Shown piece by piece: positions 10,171-52,315 of a stretch of DNA of 64,000 nucleotides. The translations under genes and the position numbers were made by a program. The stretch lies in the NCBI RefSeq assembly GCF_018873765.1, contig NC_057923.1:61808593-61872592 (forward strand). Reading direction: 5' to 3'. The notes beneath the pieces are model-generated. The model was not told where the DNA came from. It saw nothing but the letters and a program-made list of their open reading frames with translations, and did not search any database. Position 1 is the first letter of the stretch. Every line of letters begins with the position of its first letter. The DNA is from Telopea speciosissima. Its lineage: Eukaryota > Streptophyta > Magnoliopsida > Proteales > Proteaceae.

Positions 10171-13100
10171 CTAGACCTTCGCTATGTGTGACTCAGCCAG
10201 TGAAGAATTGAGGTCTTCTCTGGACTGTGATCTCCGGCTTTGAAGACGCATCTGACTTCTGTGAGGGGCCCAGAAGGAACCCACCCCACCATTATCAGAC
10301 TGCATCTGCCCCAAGCTACCAGAGGAGTAACTATGTGAGACACTACTGGTTGTCGGATGTAATGAATACTCAATGAGCTGAATGCTGTGCTCTCCCAAAC
10401 TGTGGTCCATACTGAACGGTTTTTGCTGAGAATGAGCAATGGTAGGACTCAGTGGCATCTTTACCCTCCCATCTCCTAGAACATCACAGTGAAATTGCTT
10501 GTAAAGGTCAAACATGGAGAAAAGCAGATGAAATAATATACATATATAAGAGAGAGAGAGAGAGAGAGAACTCCGAAGCATTGATTAGAAAAAACAAATC
10601 AAAGAAATTTGTATGCGGATCTCCTTTTTTTAAAACAAAACTTGAGTCTGCACAAAAATCCAATTCAGTGTATCAAACTATTATAGCTTTTCTTTCCTAA
10701 GTTGCAAGTTGCAACTTTGATCTTATTGATACAACCCATGATTAACTATAGAAACCTGATTTTACAGAATACTCCAGTCGTCGTGGCTTTGTGGCATGGT
10801 TAATACTACATGCATAAAACTGGAAGCTCGCTTTTTGAATGAGTTATAACAAGTTTGGTCATAGTAACTCATTCAAACAGCATAAAACCGGATGCTCCCC
10901 CCCACCCCCCAAAAAATATATATATATGGTCTTAACAAATCTTCAAACAGAAACATCAAGTGGCTTACAAGTTGGACTTCATTATTGAACATCTTTTCTG
11001 AAAATGTGGAGTACATTCTATGCAAAACATCTGCGGAAAAACTTGGCAAACTATTCATGGAGTTTGTTACCGTACAGTTATTTTTAATTTTTTTTTTTTT
11101 TTTTTTTTTGGGGGGGGGGGTGGAGGGGGTTCTGTAGCTTCATGTATGCTTTTTTTTAATCAGTAAGCTTGATGTTGTTAATTACTACTTGCCACAGAAG
11201 CTTCCCTCCATTCTTAACCAGTAGCAGTGAGCCTAACATATGGCACGTGATGCATCATCAAAGCCCCACATCAGTAGGAAGAAGAAGAACCAGCCCCACT
11301 CCCATGTGGGGCCCATTGAGTAGTTACCTAGGGTTGGCCCTTGCCCCCCCCCCCCATACTTAGTTAATAGCTTAGCAATTTGTTTACATTCCTATACTTT
11401 GTTTATTTTTTCTGTTTTTAATTGAACCGGTTCAAATTGGTTGCATCCAATTGGTTCAATTTAAATGAAGTGCTCCTATTGGCTAATAGGGTCTTAAATC
11501 CTATTGGTTGATAAGGAATCTTCTTTTAATTAGCTGTTTTGATTTGAATTCCTCCCTTTCCACGATTTTTAGAAGTGGAAATAGTTTGTAAGTCTTTTCA
11601 GCTAAGGAATCCTATTCCAAAGCTGAATCGACATTGGCCCTTGGCCTTATTATATAAGTTAATAAAATTTCAGAAGAGGATTAGCCTCCCAAAAATCGTG
11701 AATGTGTTTTGCTGCCATTGTTGCTGCTGTTCTGCTCTGCAGAGATTTTGCATCCTTGTGGTTCTATCAAGGTGGAAAAGGTAGGTGGATCTCCTACGAC
11801 TCCTTGCACCATGACAGCCGGGAAGATCCCTAAGATTGAAGATGGTTCTATCCTTCTCTGCTGTCCAAGCTTGTTACCAGTGGATTCTACTGTAAGTTTG
11901 AGACCCAATTCTGTTTCTAACACTCTACTCCCCCACCCCTAATCGATTCCCCTTTGTTTTTGTTTGAATTTCATAAACCCGTATCACCCTTAACCCTGTC
12001 CAGCATTAACCCATCATCAGAATTTCATCAGAATTGGACTACAGTTTCCCCTTAGCATCCCCTCCACTCGATCCCAGGCTGCTACCCCAAATTGTCATTC
12101 AAACCTTAATTCCCTCGTCAGTCTTCTCCATTAAAGCTCCACAAACCCTAAAATTTCCACAGCCTAACCTAACCATCAAAACCAGCCCAAAATTGGTTCG
12201 AACCTCCCTTCTACTGTCCCCTACACTTGATCCAAAGTGCATCCCAAATTCCCACCCTAAACCCTAGTTTCACCTACTTTCCTATTTCCAAAACCCAAAA
12301 CCCTAACCCTAAATTTTATGGAATTCTAATTTTTATTTAAACCTGATTAAACCTACTTCAATATCATCCTAAACACCTGACCAGCTTTACTGTTTATCAT
12401 AATCTCTCATCCCCTTCATCTTAACCCTAGAATTTGACCTAAAACTCCTATTCTGCTCTATTCAAACTGCAGAACCAGCAGCCCCTTTGGTCCTTTGTCA
12501 TTGGATCCTGGATAATTGGCCTCTAGTAGGACCTTTACTATCTAGAGCTACATTGGCACGGACTCTGCTGAATTAGCTGAGTGAATGATGATGCTATGAT
12601 GAATTAAACAACCACCGATTGGGGGGGAACACAGGCAAAGTTTCAATAGGCGAAGAAAAAACATATTCCAAATGATCAATCCAGTCTCTCTAAATTTTAA
12701 GATCTTTCTTGTTTAGCACTGGGTTAACATCATAGTTTTAACATCCACATAAGGTCTTTAAGTTGATCAAGGTCCCAACAAGTCACTACAGTATTCTATT
12801 CCATCATTTGAAGGTCAAAAGTAGTAAGAAATTAATCTCTTTCCCATAAAAGGTTAAAAATAAAACATCTGTCCCATCCAGAGTGATAAATGGCATGTCA
12901 ATTGTAGGAAGATGGAAACAGAGGGCAGAATCCATTCTGCTTAACCATTTTCCCTTAGAAAAATCAAAAAAATAACAAATGAAAAGTACCTTACCAATAT
13001 AATAGTACAAAAAGAAGAGATCAATATCCAAAAAGTTTGTGAGTAGAGGACTAACCAATCCTCGAACAAAAACTTACCAGTATTGATAGGACTCCAGCGC

Positions 13101-15037
13101 TGGAACCGGAACGGTGAAGAAATATTGCGAACAGAGGTCGCAGTTGCACTGTTATGCCTAAATAATGGGAGATAGGGCTTACGGAAAAATCTTGGCATCC
13201 AATTGCCAGTGCATGATAAGGCACAGGCTAGAAGTACCAGCGACACAATCACCAGAACAATTAGAAGGATTGGGCTCATCTTCATCTGGAGTATTCTATA
13301 GCTCTGAAGTGCCATTCGAGTTGATAACGACCCCCCAGCTTCCAAAAGAGCAACCCCAAGTGTCCAAGTAATACTACCAGAACCAATAAGCACCTGGCTA
13401 TCTGTTAAGTGTAATCCCTCTCTCAACAGCGATACAATATAAGGTGCCCTAAAGCAGTATTGTTCTATAAATGGCTGTGGTACCACACTATTCCTTGCAA
13501 CATCCCAAGTTTTTTCACAGAATTCCCGACCATTCTCCAATACATCATCAAGTGTATCTTCTGAGGACAAGTTAAAAAACCGAAACACCACATAGAAGCC
13601 AGACATCGCATAAAACTTCCCATGGGGACGAGGTAAGCTATCACTCAGGGCACAAGGTTGCAGCTCACAATCAATTCCTGGATTTGAATCTGACCATTCA
13701 GACAAATTAACCGCCACTTTTGCAAGCATGCTGCATTCTTCCCACTGTGGAGCACCAACAAGGCGGACAGCTATTCCAGGTTTTCCTCTTTTACCAATAT
13801 TTCTTCCTACCATCAAAGGGCTCTCACTTTCTTGGTTTAGTGAAGCACACTGAGAACAGATATACTTTTCCATGTACCCACTCTGCAAGCATGGATGTTT
13901 AAGTTCAATCTTTCCATTAATTAGATCAGCATTACTGATTCCTGGAAGCTTCTTGAGAAGATACACCACAGATTTATCAAAGGCATCATTCAAACCATAA
14001 CCCGACAAAGAATAGGCACTGAGCTGATGACTAACGGTTCCAATATTTAACTTTAAACCAGTCTCACCTTTTACCTGTTCCTCGGTCTCAAAAGTAACCT
14101 GCAATGATGAACCACCCAAATCAAGTGCACCAAATGTCGCTTTTGCTGGTTCTGAACCCAGCATACCCATGTGATAATTAAGAGCTATCCATCCATAATA
14201 AGCTTCCTCCATGCCTGAGATAACCCTAACCCAGTCCCTACGGCACGAAAATGAAGAATTCCTCAATATTGACCAAGCATTATCAAGAAGCCATGTGGAA
14301 TCATTACTTGGAAGTCTACGAACCCCAGCTGTGGCAAAAAGGAAGAGTGAGGTACTCTTATGAGATTGCTTGGGGATTTTCTCCTCTGCCCACTGAAGGA
14401 GAGGTTTCATCACTGCCTTCAACCCAGATGTATTTTGCACGAGTTTGTCAAACCCAGGCTCAGTTTCCATTCGAAGATAAGCACGCCCAGACCGTGCAAT
14501 AGATTTTCTTTCAGTCCCTTCTGGTAATGATCTCAAGATAATAGGAAGACTGCCATCTTTTTTGTGATCAATAGATGATTTATATACATAAACACGAGTT
14601 CCCGTACTTCCACAATCAAGTACCACATAAAATTTTGATGCTTCTTGAGACCAATAAGTACTTAAATATTTTGCACACAAGTAGATCAAGAAAAATAAGA
14701 TTAGTAAGCAAATGAGTGCCATGATTCTTCGAACCCATTTCTTCCATAAAAATGGTATTCCTGGCAAGTTTTTCTCCTTTGAGAAACTTGCTCCAGCCTT
14801 CTCTCTCTGTAAGGGATGAGGCACTTTTGCACGGGATGCAGTCCTGTTTAGTATAAGATCAAGATCATTTTCTTCTGGATCAAGTCCACGGAACGTTGAG
14901 AAATCTTGAAGCGATGATGAGTTTCGCAAGTTGTTCTTTTGTCCAGGATGGACTGTACTATAACCTGAAACTGAACCCACAGGGGGCAATAGTCCAGAAG
15001 ATGCTGATGATCCAGACACAGAACGTGAGGATGCCAT
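10171..15037 (-). CDS. APY7: Apyrase 7-type nucleoside phosphatase (GDA1/CD39)
   Basis: Coding exon 1 is 15037-13078 and exon 2 is 10475-10171, joined by a GT-AG intron (donor at 13077, acceptor ending 10476). The frame is kept across the junction and gives 754 residues, close to the usual length of plant APY7. Residues 104-123 form a membrane anchor behind a Ser-rich cytosolic tail. Apyrase conserved regions follow: DCGSTGTRV (141-149), ATAGVRRL (235-242), SGMEEAYYGWIALNY (274-288), ALDLGGSSLQ (304-313) and GSGSITWTLG (552-561). A second membrane segment lies at 588-608. The exon-2 tail (SHSYSSGSLGQMQ, SQMRLQSRRSQSREDLNSSL) is typical of the APY7 branch. The family hydrolyses nucleoside tri- and diphosphates, and the branch is linked to the secretory pathway and pollen wall formation. 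I chose the ATG at 15037 because the one 30 bp upstream lies across a likely 5'UTR acceptor (TTGCAG at about 15050). No disabling lesion was seen. Confidence 0.93.
10476..13077 (-). other. Apyrase intron with dispersed repeat family A
   Basis: The minus-strand intron begins GTAAGTTTTTG and ends TGATGTTCTAG, with a TC-repeat polypyrimidine tract (10551-10570 on plus). It contains a T-run/G-run at 11084-11120, a C-run at 11345-11355 and a copy of dispersed repeat family A (about 11400-12560). Confidence 0.85.
11400..12560 (+). repeat. Dispersed repeat family A, copy 2 (inside apyrase intron)
   Basis: Collinear with 26010-27010. Shared landmarks are AATTGAACCGGTTCAAATTGG, the TTGCTGCCATTG/TGCTGC stretch, GGTAGGTGGA followed by CTCCTACGACTCCTTG, and the closing GAACCAGCAGCCCCTTT-like block. 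It lies antisense to the apyrase gene. It may be a solo LTR, but no clean ends or target duplication were found. Confidence 0.65.
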
Positions 15038-15498
15038 ATGACAGACCTGCTGCAACAGGAGGAGCATCAGTGACCATAGTTAGCAAAAATAGGAACGGCA
15101 AAAAAACAAAAACGGATGGTACGAGGTTTAAAGATGTAGATTTCAAAAAAAGGGGACAAATAAAGGCAGCATACTCATATAAATTGATGAATTTTCACCT
15201 GAATCCCTACATCTAATGTTCAAAACAACTATAACATCCAACATTAATGCATATATCTTCCATAACCCATTATACGTTTCATGAAAAATAATAATACTAA
15301 AGGATAAAAATGAAATGAAAGGATTGTAGCTTTTGTATAGGGAACTATTTCAGTATAAGCAATTGAATCAATATGGTTATATATTAATTAGCACACGTCT
15401 CACATGAAAGTAGGAGTCTTATGCTCCCTTATCGGTATATACTCCATACACGTGAACCGCACATAGGATACATGAAACGTGAACGCATTTAATATGCG

Positions 15499-19768: not shown

Positions 19769-20472
19769 TACGAATTGATCTAACCTAAATTTTTTTTTTC
19801 CCACCCTCCCATCGTGTTCTCTTCTCTTTCCCCTCTCTCTCGATCTCTTTTCTCTTCCTTCTCCTTGCTTCTTCTCCTTTTCTAAGGGCAGCACTACAGA
19901 GGTGATCTTATGATCTAGTTGCTGCCCCTTCTCACCTCTTTTTTTCCTAATTCATGACCTAATTTTCCTGTTCGATGGCTGCTGCTGGTTCCCTCTTGCG
20001 GAAATTGGAGCTTCCATATTTTATTGCAGATCAGGCCTGAGTTTATTGGGACTGCTGCTCCCTATATTGGAGCACTTCTGCGACACTAGACTGCTGTTTT
20101 CCAGCCTCATATTGGTACTGAAGACCCCTTCTCCCACTCGATCTCTTATTTTCAGGGTTTTCCTACAACAAAACCCTAAGCCTTATCGATATTGGGATTA
20201 GGGCTGATTACAGTTGCTGTTTGTTTTTGGTTTTATTCTTCATCAAAGGCATACCCTGCAGGCTCTTGGACTGATTCACCTGGCTTCATCTGCAGCATAG
20301 TTTTGGTTTACTCTCCCCCCGTCAATTGCTTTTTTGGGTTTCTTCCAAACCCTAATTTAATCAATATTGGGGAGGGCTCCTTATTTGCTGCTGGTTTTTT
20401 GGGTGGTGTGTTTTCCATCCCTGGTTTGGCTTCTTCAGTGGCTTTCTCTGCTGATCAGCTCCTCTCTGCACT

Positions 20473-23400
20473 ATGGGTGACTCCACTGATATCTCCACTG
20501 CCACATCTGCTCAGGTTACCAATGACAAGTCTGATTTTCGTGATCTCCACCCTAACCCTATCAAGTTAGACGGCAGCAACTATCTTCTATGGTCTCGATC
20601 AGCCTCTTTTGCTATTGCTGGTCGTGGCCTCACTGATTATATTGATGGGATTATTCCTATGCCGACTACCCCTGGTGCTGCCCGGACTAAATGGCTAGCC
20701 CACAATGGTCTTCTTATGTCCTATTTGGTTGGTTCTATGACTTCAGATCTTGCACAGGGTTTTCTTTTACTTGATACGGCTTCTCAGATTTGGGCAGTGT
20801 GTAAGGAGACATATGGGCAGCTTGGTAATGATGCTCAGGTTTATGAGCTTCGCAAGAAGGTTCTTCATACTACTCAAGGGGACCTAACTGTGTCTAAATA
20901 TTATGCCACTCTCCGCAGCTTCTGGCAGCAATTGGACCATTTTTCCGATTATCACCCTGATACCGCTGCCAACATAGTTGCATATAAGAAGCATGTTGAC
21001 AAGATTCGGGTTTATGACTTCTTGGCTGGGTTGAATGTTGAATATGACCAGATACGTGTTCAGGTGTTGGGCCATTCACCTTTTCCCACACTTGAACAAT
21101 CCTATGCCCTGGTCTCTTCAGAAGAAAACCGTAGGGCTGTTATGTTACATCCTCCTGTTTCGGACAGATCAGCTCTCCAGACTGCTGCCCCTATTGGTAC
21201 GTTATCTGTTGGTAGTTCTACTTCCAGTCCTATTACATGTGACCACTGTCACAAACCTTACCACACCAAGGACAAATGCTGGAAGCTTCATGGGAAACCG
21301 GCTGACTTTGAAGCCAAGCGGGCTGGCAAGAAAAAACCTAAGAGCAAGGCACATCAATCTGAATCTGTTGCTACCCATGACTACGGACATTGGTCTATCC
21401 CAGGATGATCTACGAGGCTTTCTGCGTGTACTAAGGTCTTCTGCTGCGCAGCCTCTACTACTTCCGTTGCTACTGCCAATTCCTCGGCTCCTTCAGGTTC
21501 TTATTTTGCCCGGTCAGGTATCCCTTTTGGTGGTCATTGTGCTTCTGTAGCTTCCCATCCCTGGATAATTGATTCCGGAGCTACGGATCACATGACTGGC
21601 TCTTCTAGCTTATTTTATAGATACTCTCCCACTTCTGGGAAAGACAAGGTCAAAGTGGCTGATGGTTCCCTTTCCTCTATCTCTAGCAAAGGGATCATCA
21701 ACTGCACTTCACACCTCCCTTTGTCTTCTGTTTTACATATCCCTAATTTTACTACTAACCTCCTTTCCATTAGTAGTATTACTCGTGATCTTAACTGCAA
21801 GGTAACCTTTTTTCCTTCCCATTGTGTTTTTCAGGATCTGGCGTCTGGGAAGACGATTGGATTGGGTAAAGTTCACGGCGGGCTGTATCTGCTTGATGAT
21901 GGTCATCTCTCTCCACCGGTAACTTCTCCACTACATCAGAACTCCTTGGTCTCTTCTGAACTTTACCAGTGGCACTCTAGATTAGGTCACCCTCCATTAG
22001 GAATTTTAGCACATTTATTTCCTTCTTTAGTCACCAAATGTAATAAGGATAACTTTTTTTGTGAGGCTTGTGTTCTGGCCAAACAGACACATGCAACTTT
22101 TTCTTTATCAAATAAAAGGAGTTCTTCTTGTTTTAATTTGGTGCATTCGGATGTTTGGGGACCTAGTCGTAAGACCTCTATTTCTGGCCACCGTTGGTTT
22201 GTCTCATTTATTGATTGTCATTCTCGTAATACTTGGATTTATCTTCTTCAGTCTAAAAACCAAGTTTTTTCTTGCTTTCAACATTTTCATAAAATGATCC
22301 AGACCCAATTCCAGGCCACTCTTAAGGTTTTACGGAGTGATAATGGCACTGAATATAAAGAATCCCAATTTCAACATTACCTTGTTGATCATGGGATTAT
22401 ACATCAGCCTAGTTGCGTTGATACCCCAGCCCAAAATGGTGTGGCTGAAAGAAAGAATCGCCACTTGTTGGAAGTGGCCAGAGCTTTAATGTTTGCTCGC
22501 CATGTTCCATCCCAATATTGGGGTGATGCTGTTCTCACTGCAGCTTACCTTATTAATAGGTTACCTTCACGGGTTCTGGATTCCCGTAGCCCCGCTGACC
22601 TTTTACTTGGTGATTCCTCTTTTGTGGTCCCTCCCAAGGTCTTTGGTTGTGTCTGTTATGCTAGGGATACTCATTCCCCTGGCAAACTTGAACCCCGGGG
22701 GTTGAGGTGTATTTTTTTGGGTTATTCTCCAACCCAGAAAGGTTACAAGTGTTACCACCCTCCTACCCGCCGTACTATGGTCAGTATGGATGTGGTTTTC
22801 CATGAAACCCTTTCCTATTATTCTTCCCCACCTCTTCAGGGGGAGCACTCTAATGAAGATGTGGTTCATCCTCTTGGGTTTCCCTTCCCAACATCACCTA
22901 TAGCCACCAACCAGCCTCCCATAACTGCTGTCCAGCCTCCCGAGGCTGCTGTCCAGCCTCTCGAGGTTGTTGTGTAGCCTCCCATGGCTGCTGCCCAGCC
23001 TCCAGTAGCTGCTGTCCAGCCTCCCGAGGCTGCTGTCCCTTCACCTGGGGGGATTCCAATATAAGGGGAGACCTTGGAAATAGGTGGTGGTAATGTTCCT
23101 ACTCAGGGGGAGCTGACTCCAGTACAGAGGACCATTCGTAACTTTCAGAGGACCATTGACAATTCCACCATTCTCACTTATAACTGGAGATGTTCTAACA
23201 GAGGGCAGAATCAGTCTACTACAGCACCGATACCCATCCAGTTGCCGCCTCAGGATCCAGATCCTCCTCCTGGTGAGCCCTCCTCTTCTGATCTACCCAT
23301 CGCACATCGCAAAGGTACCAGGACCTGCACTTTACATCCTATTTCCCATTTTGTTTCTTATAGTTCTCTTTCTCCTTCTTTTCGTACTTTTGTTTCCTCC

Positions 23401-24948
23401 CTTTCTTCTGTTTCCATTCCTAAAAATTGGCAGGAAGCATCTACAGATGGGAAGTGGAAGGCCGCAATGTTGGAAGAAATGAGAGCATTGAACAAAAACA
23501 ATACGTGGGATCTTGTAGCTCTTCCTCCAGGGAAAAAAACAGTGGGTTGTGAATGGGTGTTTGTGGTCAAGCAGAAGGCAGATGGTACAGTGGATCGGTA
23601 CAAGGCACGTCTAGTTGCTAAAGGCTTCACTCAGACATATGGCATTGACTACCAGGAGACTTTCGCACCAGTAGCAAAACTCAATACTGTCAGGGTATTG
23701 CTATCCTGTGCTGTGAACCTTGGATGGGATCTTCAGCAGTTGGATGTGAAGAATGCCTTCCTCCATGGTGAACTAAGAGAAGAGGTATATATGGACATTC
23801 CTCCAGGTTTTTCAAGTCCTGCTACCAAGCGTAAGGTTTGTCAACTGAAGCGTGCACTTTATGGCTTGAAGGAGTCACCAAGAGCTTGGTTCGATAGACT
23901 TCACAGGGCTATGCTTTCAGTGGGCTACCAGCAAAGCAATGCTGATCATACCTTGTTCATCAAACGTATGGGTGATAGGGTTACTCTCCTCATAGTTTAT
24001 GTTGATGATATTGTAGTGACCGGCAATGATGGTGATGAGATAAAAAGGTTGAAGCTGTTTCTTGGCCGTGAGTTTGAAATTAAGGATCTGGGGACTCTAA
24101 AATATTTTCTAGGGATAGAGGTTGCTCGCTCTTCAAAGGGCATATTTCTGTCTCAGAGAAAGTATGTCCTGGATCTACTATCTGAAACTGAGCTGCTAGG
24201 GTGTCATCCTTCAGACACTCCCATAGAAGCTACGACAAGACTCAAGGAGAAAGAAGGCACACCAGTTGACAAAGGTCGTTATCAGCGGTTGGTCGGCAAA
24301 CTTATCTACCTATCTCACACTCGGCCAGACATTGCCATTGCAGTTAGTATGGTCAGCCAGTTTATGCATGACCCTTATTCTTCTCATATGGAGGTGGTTC
24401 TTCGCATCTTACGATACTTGAAGTCTGCTCCAGGACAAGGAATTCTTTTATCTTCCAATGGTCATATGAAGGTTTAAGCATACACTGATGCAGATTGGGC
24501 TGGTTCATGTGATCGGAAGTCCATCTCTGGATATTGCTCTTTTGTAGGAGGTAACCTCGTCACCTGGCGTAGTAAGAAACAGAATGTGGTGGCTAGGTCC
24601 AGTGCTGAGGCTGAATTCCGTGCAATGGCGCATGGCATCTGTGAATTGTTGTGGCTTAAAGGGTTGTTGCAAGATATTGGGGTTGCTGTCCAACTTCCAA
24701 TGATGTTATATTGTGACAATAAGGCTGCCATAAGCATCGCTCATAATCCTGTCCAACATGATCGTACAAAACATGTGGAGGTAGACCGACATTTCATCAA
24801 GGAGAAACTTGAAGCTGGACTAATCTATGTTCCCTATGTGAAGTCTACTAATCAACTGGCTGATGTGTTCACAAAGGGTCTGAGTAGCAAAGTGTTTCGT
24901 CCTTTTCTAGCCAAGTTGGGCATGTGCGGCATCTTTGCACCAACTTGA
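20473..24948 (+). pseudogene. Young Copia gag-pol polyprotein with stops
   Basis: One frame runs 1,492 codons from MGDSTDIST to the stop before the polypurine tract. Domain order is gag (LDGSNYLLWSRSASFAIAGRG), zinc knuckle CDHCHKPYHTKDKC (21238-21279), protease IDSGATDHM (about 21568), pre-integrase HSRLGHPPLG, integrase (HSDVWGP, SDNGTEYK, DTPAQNGVAERKNRHLLEVAR), a Pro-rich repeat linker, reverse transcriptase (DVKNAFLHG, YVDDIVVTG) and RNase H (AYTDADWAGS ... YCDNKAAISIA). The protease-to-RT order gag-PR-IN-RT-RH defines Ty1/copia. Four in-frame stops occur at 21406 (TGA), 22975 (TAG), 23062 (TAA) and 24475 (TAA). Around 21390-21450 the true reading (GLSQDDLRGFLRVLRSSAA) is in another frame, implying two compensating indels. 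Confidence 0.93.
22908..23040 (+). repeat. 24-bp tandem repeat coding a Pro-rich linker
   Basis: About five to six copies of a 24-bp unit coding roughly AVQPPEAA lie between the integrase and RT domains of the young Copia. One unit carries a CAG-to-TAG stop (22975). Confidence 0.8.
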
Positions 24949-29882: not shown

Positions 29883-29954
29883 GAGTCTTTAGCTCAAAAG
29901 GAAGAGCACCTGGGTTTGTTCCCAGGAGATGATGGTTCGACTCCATCACGACTC
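29883..29954 (+). tRNA. tRNA-like pseudogene
   Basis: The 72-nt sequence has an acceptor stem GAGTCTT/ACGACTC (one mismatch), a D arm GCTC/GAGC and a T arm GATGG-TTCGACT-CCATC with a perfect B box GGTTCGACTCC. The anticodon arm is abnormal: CCTGGG/CCCAGG closes a six-base loop TTTGTT. It is either a decayed tRNA or a tRNA-derived SINE head. Confidence 0.4.
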
Positions 29955-30404
29955 TCATGTAGCAGTAGCTTCTTATTTAATTTCTTATCTTGAAGTGAAC
30001 TAATTTATCAATCAGAATAGGATGAGACTTGGGGGAATCTGAACTTTTGTTTTACTTAAAAGAAAGCTATTGAGTCATACTGAGTCATACCCTTTATGTT
30101 GTCATACCTGAGCACTCACTCACCCCCACCCCTTGCTACCTCTACACCTGAACACAACACTGACACCGTCACCCTCACCCCTTGTTGCCCCTATTCCTGA
30201 GCACACACTCAACCCCACCCCTTGCTGCCCCTCTTGCTGCCCCTACACCTAAGCTCACACTCACACATAGCAATGGCATATTAATAATTTTAGGTTAAGT
30301 TTGAGTGGTAATTGGATTTAATTAATTATATTAGAACATTAATATGGTAATCGTATTTTTTTTGGTTAATGTGTCTTATACTTTTAAATGTAATGTTTAG
30401 TAAC

Positions 30405-40154: not shown

Positions 40155-41540
40155 TCAGCTGCATAACTTAACTGTGCATGCCACTGCTTGAGCCCAAAAC
40201 TTCAGCCTTGCTTTAACTTCATCCGGATCATCACCTGCAATGGGAATTAAAAAAAAATTCAGTTAATATTTCAATAGCCAGATTTTAATTCTCCGTATCT
40301 ATCAAGTTTCAAAAGAGATTGAATCTCAGAAAGACAAGTCAAGATATCAGGAACTAAAAGAATTGACATAATTCTCAAAATAAGTTCATGGATTAAGGTT
40401 AAAAAAATTTGTATCTAGAGTAATATACAAGTTAGATCGAAGTGTTATTGGATTCTTTGAGAATTACAACTTCAAATAAAGGGTAAAACATATGCAGGCA
40501 CCCCTCATAAATAAAAAAGGAAATTACTTCTCATTTTATTATATAAAACAGGGGGGATTACAATTTCCAATACCTTATAATGCAGATCTCTGCACATTAA
40601 AGAACTCAAAATTTCTAACACTACTTATATGGGCATCAAATCAAAGAACCCAATGTGCCAATGTATTTACTAAATTATCCTATAAGACAAGATTATAACC
40701 TGACACACTCATCAGAGCTTCATCTAGATAGATCAGTTGATCCAGATTAATTCTGCAAAGAAACAAAACATCAATTTGCAAATCTTCTAGTTGTGAAAAC
40801 AAAAAGAATCTATCGAAAAAAAAAAAAAAAAACCCTAACATAGTTGTTTATCAGATCAAACTCAAAACTAATTAGGGGAATCAATCTAGTCCACAAAATC
40901 CATTGATATCCAGTTAGACCACAAACAAGATGAGGAATGCCCAAAAGTGTTTATTCAGAATTTAAAATCAAACTCGATTTAGTAGTATCACGTACACATT
41001 CAAAAACCCCAAGAAAAAAAAATTCATAATTTTTAAGGATAGAATGAAAAGGAAGCAGCTTTGCATACCAGGGCTAGAGATCTTCCAGTTGGCAATCGGA
41101 CCTGAAGAAGAAGAGCAGGTCTCAGAAGTAACTGAAGAAACCGTAGATGTCTCCAGAGACTTTTGTTGCTCATCCATAAACCTCTGACTCATGGAGTAAC
41201 AAAGCTCCAGAGCAGGTAAGGTGTTGCAGAGCTCAGGGATTTCATCATAACTGAAACCAAACCCCAGATCCAAACAACCCTTCAACTCATCAAGATCATC
41301 ATCAGTCAAGCTCTTCGTCCTTGAGAACCCATTTGATCCTCCTTGTTCTTGGTCCTCCTCATCACCTGCTTCAACATACCCTTCAAGAAAAAATTGGTTT
41401 TTCTTCTTTTTCTTAGACCAAGGATCTCTATCTCTGAACCCAGCTCGTGGGCTCCTCTCTTCTGCAACTTCTTCATCTGAGACAAAGCTATCATCCCAAA
41501 TCGACGCCCTTGTTTCTGTATCAGACGAGAGGCTCTCCAT
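40155..41540 (-). CDS. DUF1685 family protein
   Basis: Exon 1 is 41540-41069 and exon 2 is 40234-40155, with donor GGTATGC and acceptor ATTGCAG. The joint is in phase and the protein is 183 residues. The N-terminal third is acidic and Ser-rich with a Lys run near residue 45. The DUF1685 core begins KSLTDDDLDELKGCLDLGFG and continues YDEIPELCNTLPALELCYSM. Exon 2 supplies the conserved tail GDDPDEVKARLKFWAQAVAC TVKLCS. This is a plant-specific family of unknown biochemical role. No transit peptide or membrane segment is evident, so it is probably nuclear or cytosolic (inference). Both exons are intact. Confidence 0.88.
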
Positions 41541-42066
41541 CTCTCGCTCTCTGTGCTGGCTGCTGAGTGTGCTATTGGGGACTTAAAGCCCTGTTTTTAA
41601 ACTAGAGAAGAAGCCCTAGCCAATGAATGGCGGTCATCATGTATGTATAGGATGGATGTATGTATGTTATGTGTAAGATGGTATACATACATGGATGGAT
41701 GATGGATGTGATGTGATAACAGCTGGGTTATGGGTGATAATGAGTGGAAATGACTTAACACGTGGAATTCTTTTTAAGAGCCGGTGGTGCATTAAATACG
41801 AAAGGATATGGGACCGAGCTAAGGGGGCCCCACCACGTTCTCTTCGATTTTGTTTCTGTTTGCAATCAAAATGACGATTTTACCCATGCTTTGATTTTAT
41901 ATGTTTTAAACGCTGTCCTAGTTTTTGGCAGCGAGGATAACCGAATCACCGTTGATTTTGCCCCTGATTACCTTGTAGCTTGTACTATTATATGTGTATG
42001 TAGTCGTCTTAGCTGGCAGTCCTAGTGATATGGAAATGTTGCATTTAAGAAATGATATAAAATATT

Positions 42067-49022: not shown

Positions 49023-49938
49023 TGGGGCACATGTGCATAAGTGTACGCATTGTGTGTGCATTGAACTGGAACATTCGAGAATTTCTCATGTGGTCATTTT
49101 AATTGAAATGAAATCCTTGCAAGTTGTGTACGTTCGGTCCCTTGACCTGAGGGATCTTTATCTATGTGATTTTGCACTGTGTGTTTTGGTGCACCAATAG
49201 TTGATATCTTCATGACTATATATCAGTACACTGGATTCACAGTATTTGGCCATAAGACATTCCCAACGTGGAATTCACTGTCCTAATTGGTTGAATATTG
49301 AAAAAAGAGAATATCTGTAATAGATTGGACATAAATTCGAAGTTGGTGATATTTTTGGTACAATGTTTCAAAATGCTTTAAAAGTTAATATAATTAATTA
49401 TTATTTATATTGACAAACATTTTGAAAATTGTTTTCTCGATCAAATCAGAATTATAGAATCTTTGTAATAGCATTTCCAGTGTACTGGGGTCTTGACAAC
49501 AATTTTACACATGCTCTATAATGAACCATGCGATATTGTACAGAGGGAAACTGATCCGTAATTAAGTACTTAAATTGGGTTTTATTAGTTGTACCTACTT
49601 GGCAGCATATGTGTTGCCAGGGAATATGGTGTTGGACTGACACATGGTGCGCTAGGTGGAATCCCAATGGGATCCTACTCCTTTCTTATTAGTCCTACCC
49701 ATATATGTAGCACCTTTTATTATTGGCCATAGACCATTTTTTTATGGTCATTGGATGAGATTCTTTATGTGAGATGAGATCTCACATAAAGATAGAGGGA
49801 AATGTTAAGAAAAGGAATCTTTTCTTTGCATCTTGTGGGATTGAGAATCCTATTGCAATAAAATCACATCCTTTAAAGTGAAATATTTTGATTGGTTCCA
49901 ATTTGGACACCATATCACAACACTTGCCAAAAAAAGTT

Positions 49939-51710
49939 GGGAAATTTATGCATACCACCCCTGAGGTTTGATGAAAGGATATTTTCACCCCCTAGGTTTG
50001 GAAAATTCTACGTACCCTCCTGAGGTTTGCAAACGGTAACAGATAGGTCCATTCCGTCAGTTCATGACTAATACTGTTAAAAAGTAGACTTGAACTGACG
50101 AAATTGCCCATACAAAAAAAGAAAAGAAAAAAAACACCTGCAACTCATCTTCCCCAATCGATTTTGGGGAAGATGAGTTGTAGGTTTCAAAACCCTTTCA
50201 ACATTGATTCTTCACCTCATCTTCTTCTTCTTCCTGGTTCTCACGTTCCTTTTCTAAACCCTAACCTAGAACCAAGTGGGAAATAATTTTCCAATTCCAA
50301 TCGATTCTCAGTAGAATTTGTGTAAATATAACAATTGAAAATTTGCTGAAATTCAAGTACACCAACATTGCCCGCCCAAAGTACAGAACTCACTATACAT
50401 TCATGGCAAAAATAGAAAAACAAGGGATCCACCCTTATTTATGGGTACATTGTTGCTCCGGCAAGGAGCTGTCGAGTCAAGATAACTCAACAGAGGCATA
50501 ACACCTTTTTCCCTTTCACTGGATGAACAAGAACTTTCTGGTTTCTTTTATTTTCTCTTGTTTGTCCTTGCGAGAGTGTAAGGAGATTCAAAGAACCGAT
50601 TAACCAAGGTGAGATCCAGAAAAGTAACAGAGATTGTAGCCACATTACAGATAGATGAAAAATCGCATCCCATTTACACCAAATTAAGAAAATGAAAGTG
50701 CAGAATATAAATACAAATGAAAACTAACCGATTCCAGTAGTCGTGTGGATACTCTTTTCGATAAGGAACAGAAAGGGCACGAAAACCGCAAAGAAGAGGA
50801 GAATTACGACAGGTACACTACTCCGACCGCATCTGTTCTTCTGAAGGCCAGCACCAGAGTATCCCCGTTTCAAAGCCATGGTTAATTGGTCAGATCAAAA
50901 CCACCTTTTCTGGCCAGGAAGGGTTTAAAAAAAAGTAATTGTCATTTGAAGAAAAATTTAAAAAGAGAAACAAAGTGAATGAACGGTGAATTGAAGTACA
51001 GATCTTTGCCTAATCCAACCTCAGATGCTTAGAATCGATGACCGTCATATCCAGAAGAGAGAAAAGGATAAAAGAATGTAAAAAATGAGGGATACGACAC
51101 GAAGACGCCAAGCCAAAATGACAGTAAGTTCAACCGTTCAAGAACAAGAGTTCCAGTAGTGATAAGTGAAGAACTGCTAAGGAAACGAAGGAATGTATGA
51201 ACACAGACTCAGAAAGTGTTGAATGTCTCTGTATGAGTCTCAGACTCTCAAGCTCACACACAGAGGGAGAAGACGACATCAATAGGTTTTGTTTGTTTAA
51301 AAGGCGATAAAATGGAAGGAAACGTAAACTTGAAGCTTGTCGGTGAGTAGTTCCAAACTTTCGATGTAGTTCTCACACTCCATGTGCTTCTGGTTTGGAT
51401 ATTGTTTAAGAAAAACCCAAAACCTGCAACTCATCTTCCCCAATTCGATTGGGGAAGATGAGTTGTAGGTTTTTTTTTTTCCTTTGTAAGGGTAATTTTG
51501 TCCATTCATCTTTTATTTGTTTTTGGATTCTTCATAGAAGGGCAATTCCGTCAGTTCAAGTATACTTTTTAACAGTGTTAGTCATGAACTGACGGAATGG
51601 ACCTATCTGTTACCGTTTACAAACCTCAGGGGGATACGCAGAATTTTCCAAACCAGGGGGGTGAAAATATCATTTCGTCAAACCTCAGGGGTGGTATGTG
51701 TAAATTTTCC
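49939..51710. mobile_element. Pack-MULE with captured GAUT1-like exon
   Basis: A 1,772-bp element with long inverted termini of over 200 bp. They begin GGGAAATTTATGCATACC / GGAAAATTTACACATACC and share CACCCCTGAGGTTTG, GTCCATTCCGTCAGTTCATG and CAACTCATCTTCCCCAAT. Flanks AAAAAAAGTT (49929-49938) and AAAAAAAATT (51711-51720) form a 10-bp duplication with one mismatch. Long termini with 9-10 bp duplications define Mutator-like elements. No MuDR-type transposase is present; instead the centre carries a host first exon on the minus strand. Confidence 0.85.
50729..50879 (-). pseudogene. Captured first exon of a GAUT1-like galacturonosyltransferase
   Basis: The 151-bp exon reads MALKRGYSGAGLQKNRCGRS followed by a hydrophobic signal anchor VPVVILLFFAVFVPFLFLI, then a GT donor (GTTAGT). 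This matches the start of plant GAUT1-type homogalacturonan galacturonosyltransferases, type II Golgi proteins of pectin synthesis, which begin MALKRG with a Ser/Gly/Arg run and anchor. The glycosyltransferase-8 domain is absent from the element. It lies fully inside the Pack-MULE, so it is a captured fragment; the reading frame and donor remain intact. Confidence 0.75.
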
Positions 51711-52315
51711 AAAAAAAATTTTGGAAAGAATTTTGTTAAAAATTGACAAGAATTGTCAGTAGCAACACAAGAGAACTCTCCAAAATCATTTTGGCTCTCC
51801 CTCTCTTCACGAGAAATTGATATCCCTCTCACTTGTGCCCTAGAGTGGTGGTGAGGTTAAGATTTTTGTGAAAAACATTTAAGTGTTAGCTATAGGATTT
51901 ACATCATCGGGACCATATCCCTATGTCTGTGGGAAGTACCAATTGTGAAAGAGCTAAGATCGCGATTATGTCTTGTATGATTGAGGCTTAATGTAACCTC
52001 TAATCCCTCCCTTTATATGGTTGTAAAAATTTTGATTGGTTGTTCCAACTAGTAGGACGATCCATCCGTTGCCGCACTCATTCAATGGTATCAAAGCCTC
52101 CCACCGGTGGGGGTGGGGGATTTTCAATTTATTTCAATGTCTTATTGCATTTGATCCATTTTATTTCATTAAAATTTTATGTTATGGGCCAAAGTGTTTT
52201 GAGATCAAGTGGGGCTTTAAGGAGTTTCTGGGAGGGTTGCTCCTTGGGTATAACTGTTGGATTTTACATATAATCCCATTAGCCTTCATTTTAAATGGTT
52301 CAGTGTTATTTATAT

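Follow-up and report, generated by a model that had tools for sequence, protein, structure and literature searches.

The stretch of DNA analysed here, referred to below as the window, comprises 64,000 nucleotides of contig C8 in the genome assembly of Telopea speciosissima, and the assembly that was searched contains 822.9 Mb in 1,287 contigs, with C1–C11 each 57–88 Mb long. A long open frame on the minus strand (12941–15079) encodes an apyrase-like GDA1/CD39 nucleoside phosphatase (PF01150, E 6e-60). On the plus strand, a Copia-like retrotransposon with long frames occupies 20455–24948; its integrase core and gag-pre-integrase were matched within 21409–22977, and its other frames were assigned by inspection. 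A tRNA gene match (29883–29955, plus strand; RF00005, 48.7 bits) follows. An exon of a DUF1685 gene (40968–41582, minus strand; PF07939, E 9e-26) lies approximately 8.4 kb from the left end of a transposable element at 49939–51710 and shares the strand of the gene fragment which that element carries. The features of the element are listed below, with the strand where a feature has one.

49929–49938: left target-site duplication, AAAAAAAGTT, A-rich
49939–50109, plus strand: left terminal inverted repeat (TIR), its end common to the sister copies
50136–50185: subterminal stem-loop with a 22-bp stem (single-strand DNA fold −22.9 kcal/mol, z −7.7)
50205–50314: remnant of an older captured fragment in the left arm, contiguous with an older piece (C4p1) in loci L032 and L033 and in the elements on C4, C3, and C5
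50315–51365, minus strand: captured GAUT1 fragment (5' flank/5'UTR, exon 1, and the start of intron 1), 96% identical to C6:61093717–61094761
50727–50728, minus strand: 5' splice donor GT (GTTAGT), identical in the parent and in all five copies
50729–50879, minus strand: GAUT1 exon 1, 151 nt, with ATG and, by inspection, a hydrophobic stretch; the donor phase of the parent fits exon 2
51361–51365: TCGAT microhomology at the right GAUT1 junction, present in the GAUT1 parent and in C4, C3, and C5 (TTGAT in C7, C783, and the C1 locus)
51366–51391: 26-bp scar left by an earlier capture; in all six non-GAUT1 sequences it adjoins the older piece without a break
51419–51473: subterminal stem-loop with a 26-bp stem (single-strand DNA fold −27.2 kcal/mol, z −11.2)
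51540–51710, minus strand: right TIR, its end common to the sister copies
51711–51720: right target-site duplication, AAAAAAAATT, matching the left one at 9 of 10 positions

The element is a non-autonomous Mutator-like element (MULE) of 1,772 bp. Both of its termini, at 49939 and 51710, coincide in the alignment with those of four sister copies elsewhere in the genome. Its inverted arms (49937–50109 and 51540–51712) are 173 nt each and 92% complementary; TIRs of Pack-MULEs are usually 100–500 bp long. Judged by the length of open reading frames, no transposase gene is present in the element, as the longest of 15 frames between 49900 and 51750 was 70 aa. A match of 9/10 between the flanking duplications had a frequency of 0.0004 among random pairs of local 10-mers, and three of 4018 flank 10-mers were within one mismatch of the left duplication, a count that includes both duplication copies. 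The duplication of the window copy is, however, of low complexity and matches at only 7/9 positions when aligned over 9 bp, the register that gives the best match in the four sisters (C1a 9/9, C2 9/9, C1b 8/9, and C9 7/9). Two weaker stem-loops were folded as single-strand DNA within 50040–50115 (z −3.3) and 51535–51608 (z −6.8), in addition to the two strong ones listed above; the C9 copy is without the second half of the right strong stem-loop. Duplications of 8–11 bp flank Pack-MULEs according to PMC4858842. From its long TIRs, a duplication in this range, its lack of a transposase gene, its host gene fragment, and its transposition together with that cargo, we concluded that the element is a Pack-MULE. 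The first-pass annotation had proposed a Pack-MULE at these positions with long termini and a near-perfect 10-bp duplication; the ends proved exact, and the duplication stands with the A-rich composition noted above.

The cargo consists of approximately 1.05 kb of GAUT1, a gene for an enzyme of pectin synthesis, on the minus strand: approximately 0.49 kb preceding the ATG, the 151-nt exon 1, and 0.41 kb of intron 1. The exon translates as MALKRGYSGAGLQKNRCGRSSVPVVILLFFAVFVPFLFLIEKSIHTTTGI and is followed by GTTAGT; if it is left unspliced, the frame stops after 51 aa. Hence, the start codon and 5' splice donor that had been claimed for a GAUT1-like first exon are present, and the signal anchor claimed along with them is putative, since it was assigned from the hydrophobic stretch by inspection. 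A Pfam search with the 50-aa exon gave no match for either the window or the parent sequence. We also considered whether the exon could be part of an intact GAUT gene in the window, i.e., one continuing into a GT8 domain. This was rejected, as a GAUT1 query matched exon 1 only (E 2e-5), the next match in the window having an E value of 2.7. The captured part of the parent has a GC content of 40% (exon 1, 50%), compared with 39.6% for the window and 33% for the 1 kb upstream of that part. We therefore rejected a strong preference for GC of the kind reported from grasses, the signal here being weak at best.

A parental GAUT gene had been predicted for this exon, and it was found on contig C6 of the same genome: positions 50314–51360 of the window are 96% identical to C6:61093717–61094761 (C6:61093710–61094761 in another search). 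The captured span of the parent covers approximately 487 bp before the ATG, exon 1 (L009:6198–6348), and 414 bp of intron 1, and TTTAAA is located at L009:5775 in the region upstream of the ATG. Exon 1 of the parent ends in phase 1, and after an intron of 13,337 bp a CAG acceptor is followed by the frame DPNKIQTGADIQ, which continues the reading. Further downstream (L018), stretches match PF25557 (GAUT_1, E 2e-24) and PF01501 (GT8, E 8e-53). An Arabidopsis GAUT1 protein aligns in order along the locus, at 44% identity for exon 1, approximately 30% for a gapped block, and 74–88% for four further blocks. On this basis the parent is presumably GAUT1 rather than another GAUT. The first intron of this gene is 13.3 kb long (C6:61094348–61107684, from L009 to L017).

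Two other loci, C8:53171676 and C1:79968030, are related to the captured fragment and were rejected as the parent, because they are mostly 72–73% identical to it (one 71-base piece, 85%) as against 96% for C6. The stretches that resemble the captured GAUT1 5' end are L048:3177–3969 and L049:7531–8269; L049 has an open exon 1, and that of L048 is interrupted. Neither GAUT1 exons past exon 1 nor the TIR of the window element's family was found in the 9.9 kb examined of each, and these loci may be paralogous genes or relics.

All eight candidates scored in the search with the GAUT1 fragment were accounted for by these two loci, the parent, and five copies of the element, which are located on C8 (the window), C1 (two copies, C1a and C1b), C2, and C9 with different flanking duplications. 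One-third of Pack-MULEs are multicopy according to PMC8277862. The GAUT1 junctions are identical in all five copies, and 21 sites separate the five from the parent, with 14–19 private sites per copy. These shared junctions and differences indicate a single capture, and several independent ones were rejected on these grounds.

The arms of the five copies were also found, around a different interior, in elements on C4, C3, and C5, the interior being exchanged at the same two junctions. The interior of these three sisters is composed of three pieces of different origin. Piece 1 is contiguous with the left arm and also occurs in L032, within another MULE, and in L033, whose TIR-like flanks are weak (approximately 75%). 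Piece 2 is the first part of a gene with a 64-aa frame in L036 on C10, where TIR matches are short and A-rich only. We take this gene to resemble an arabinogalactan peptide; piece 2 in the sisters includes the start codon and a signal-peptide-like stretch, and the L036 frame is donor-like. Piece 3 matches C1:78279224–78279670. A match of TIR length was not found at the GAUT1 locus L009 or at the C1 locus L034. The three sisters are themselves Pack-MULEs (L014:2286–3873, L015:2263–3839, and L016:2266–3938), carrying the start of the arabinogalactan-peptide-like gene on the minus strand.

The order of the two cargos was read from the edges of the GAUT1 fragment. The left edge lies at the point where the arm would otherwise continue into piece 1. 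On the right, 11 sequences were compared, six of them non-GAUT1 (C4, C3, C5, C7, C783, and the C1 locus). In those six, piece 3 runs directly into GTAGTTCTCACACTCCATGTGCTTCT or a single-change variant of it, and the five GAUT1 copies retain only the 26 bp of GTAGTTCTCACACTCCATGTGCTTCT from that older stretch. Because both edges of GAUT1 interrupt sequence that is contiguous elsewhere, the older mosaic appears to have preceded GAUT1, and the GAUT1 piece appears to have overwritten it. A tree of the arms agrees with this order, as it places the five GAUT1 copies apart from C4, C3, C5, and C7 (support 93; C7 by its right arm only). The five copies and this layered history of the cargo go beyond the first-pass annotation.

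Short similarities were found at both joins. At the right join, TCGAT is common to the parent and to C4, C3, and C5, and the chance of at least 5 bp at a random junction was 0.006; if the ancestor had TTGAT, the identity is reduced to GAT (3 bp), for which the chance of at least 3 bp was 0.06. At the left join, GA(A/T)TTTGC is common; from L032 and L033, exact identity is limited to approximately 2 bp (GA) and then broken by a mismatch. Joins at short similarities and stem-loops beside the slot fit gap repair with template switching. PMC3310237, from 2012, described the mechanism by which MULEs acquire gene fragments as yet to be understood. Theoretic models, with gap repair acting on stem-loops or at excision sites, are cited in PMC4858842, from 2016. 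Gap repair with template switching has been proposed for Pack-MULEs and is supported by microhomology in animals (PMC8277862, PMC4858842).

Here, we propose that GAUT1 replaced the older cargo by a repair-based process and that the resulting element then spread to five sites in trans, a model that we hold with good confidence. A non-autonomous Pack-MULE already carrying pieces from several sources would have acquired a 1.05-kb copy of the GAUT1 5' end from C6. The new piece would have replaced nearly all of the old cargo, breaking one older fragment at its left edge and leaving the 26-bp scar of another at its right. During gap repair inside the element, template switching probably occurred at GA(A/T)TTTGC and TCGAT, the short similarities of the left and right joins. 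The new element would then have been moved to its five sites, probably rapidly, by transposase supplied in trans. The main rival to acquisition by gap repair is recombination between two MULEs, in which the initial capture of GAUT1 was made by a different MULE that has since been lost or has escaped detection, and the present structure arose by recombination of that element with a C4-like one. The sister cargo is itself a mosaic, with pieces also occurring in other MULEs (L022, L025, and L032), as such a history would predict; however, GAUT1 and the older fragments are in direct contact, without intervening sequence of another MULE, and the eight scored candidates of the fragment search yielded no other carrier, the two related loci being without this family's TIR in their 9.9 kb each. 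We therefore consider a two-MULE recombinant improbable. More tentatively, the family could be viewed as a MULE chassis whose cargo slot is fixed between the two subterminal stem-loops and is overwritten by gene 5' ends through microhomology-guided template switching, with the GAUT1 and arabinogalactan-peptide-like families as two fillings of one slot; this broader model is possible, though somewhat less likely than not.

Dating of the capture by divergence had been suggested in the first-pass annotation and was carried out on the captured part, for which K2P distances were 0.031–0.040 between copies and 0.039–0.044 between copies and parent. Under a simple clock, these values suggest that the capture only slightly preceded the spread. 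Substitution rates of 7e-9 changes per site per year, and of 1.5e-9 for trees, are in use; the copies would thus be about 2–3 million years apart at the former rate and up to about 13 million at the latter. The tree of the captured part was nearly star-like, with internal supports of 38–59. The arms of the five copies (49939–50314 and 51366–51710), however, differ by 4.3–11.6%, as against 3.1–4.0% for the captured part, and C2 branches first in the arm tree, outside the other four copies (support 92). Spread in a single burst is therefore uncertain. The excess divergence of the arms may reflect their faster decay or exchange with other family members.

Selection on the captured exon was investigated by counting changes relative to the majority of the copies. 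Changes were found at 17 of 755 exon positions and 79 of 4460 positions in the rest of the fragment, and the exon changes comprised 12 non-synonymous and five synonymous ones (75% non-synonymous expected); in these small numbers, purifying selection on the exon was not detected. The window copy holds six of the 17, five of them non-synonymous, and C1a has ACG in place of ATG, so that the start is lost in one of the five copies. As no constraint was detected and one copy has lost its ATG, the exon is most likely a neutral passenger at present, and a function for it is unlikely.

Two possible roles were nevertheless weighed. If the captured 5' end served as a mobile promoter with a start codon and a signal-anchor exon, it could trap downstream exons of neighboring genes. 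The window copy retains its start codon, an uninterrupted frame, and the donor, approximately 0.49 kb of sequence preceding the ATG was captured with them and contains TTTAAA in the parent, and the DUF1685 exon lies on the same strand approximately 9 kb past the donor. That exon is far off, however, and appears to have its own ATG, and the undetected constraint and the start lost in C1a argue against such a role, which we regard as very unlikely. Alternatively, the five copies could be a source of small RNAs acting on GAUT1. Cross-talk with the parent is possible because 431 of the 1028 21-mers of the window fragment (275 of the 612 upstream of the donor) still occur without a mismatch in the parent. 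C>T and G>A account for 47 of the 96 changes relative to the majority of the copies, as would be expected of methylated DNA, and maize Pack-MULEs are among the elements reported as siRNA reservoirs in PMC13317346. The fragment is not in an inverted-repeat arrangement, though, and from the sequence data we consider this role unlikely. The neutral passenger thus remains our preferred reading of the exon.

The Pack-MULE is of an ordinary, known type; what is unusual is how clearly the apparent replacement of an earlier cargo can be traced. A single genome preserves the arrangements before and after, together with both junctions and the gene that served as donor, and the elements have strong stem-loops adjacent to the slot. 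If the proposed replacement is true, the family offers a small system in which repair-based capture can be examined, and it shows that a new capture can remove existing cargo and not just extend it. Among the titles and abstract openings listed in searches of the open-licence literature, none mentions this element or a Pack-MULE with GAUT1, which does not prove absence.

Pack-MULEs of rice and other plants are likewise non-autonomous MULEs with long TIRs, 8–11 bp duplications (PMC4858842), and host gene fragments. The GAUT1 family differs from them in that its arrangement before the acquisition survives in three sister elements, and both junctions therefore record the replacement. PM-ZIBP of tomato, likewise a Pack-MULE family of a dicot, carries a single gene fragment and has been amplified to 14 copies; it is marked by tandem TIRs, whereas the GAUT1 family is marked by replaced cargo and subterminal stem-loops (PMC3310237 for PM-ZIBP). 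In Oryza, 5–10% of MULE-derived genes are reported to be chimeric with at least two parents (PMC4858842), and the C4, C3, and C5 sisters similarly join three pieces of different origin; unlike the Oryza chimeras, the GAUT1 family lost most of its chimera rather than adding to it. Finally, short common sequence at capture breakpoints is shared with the Pack-TIRs of animals, for which gap-filling and template-switching models were described; PMC8277862 deems the application of these models to plant Pack-MULEs worth exploring.
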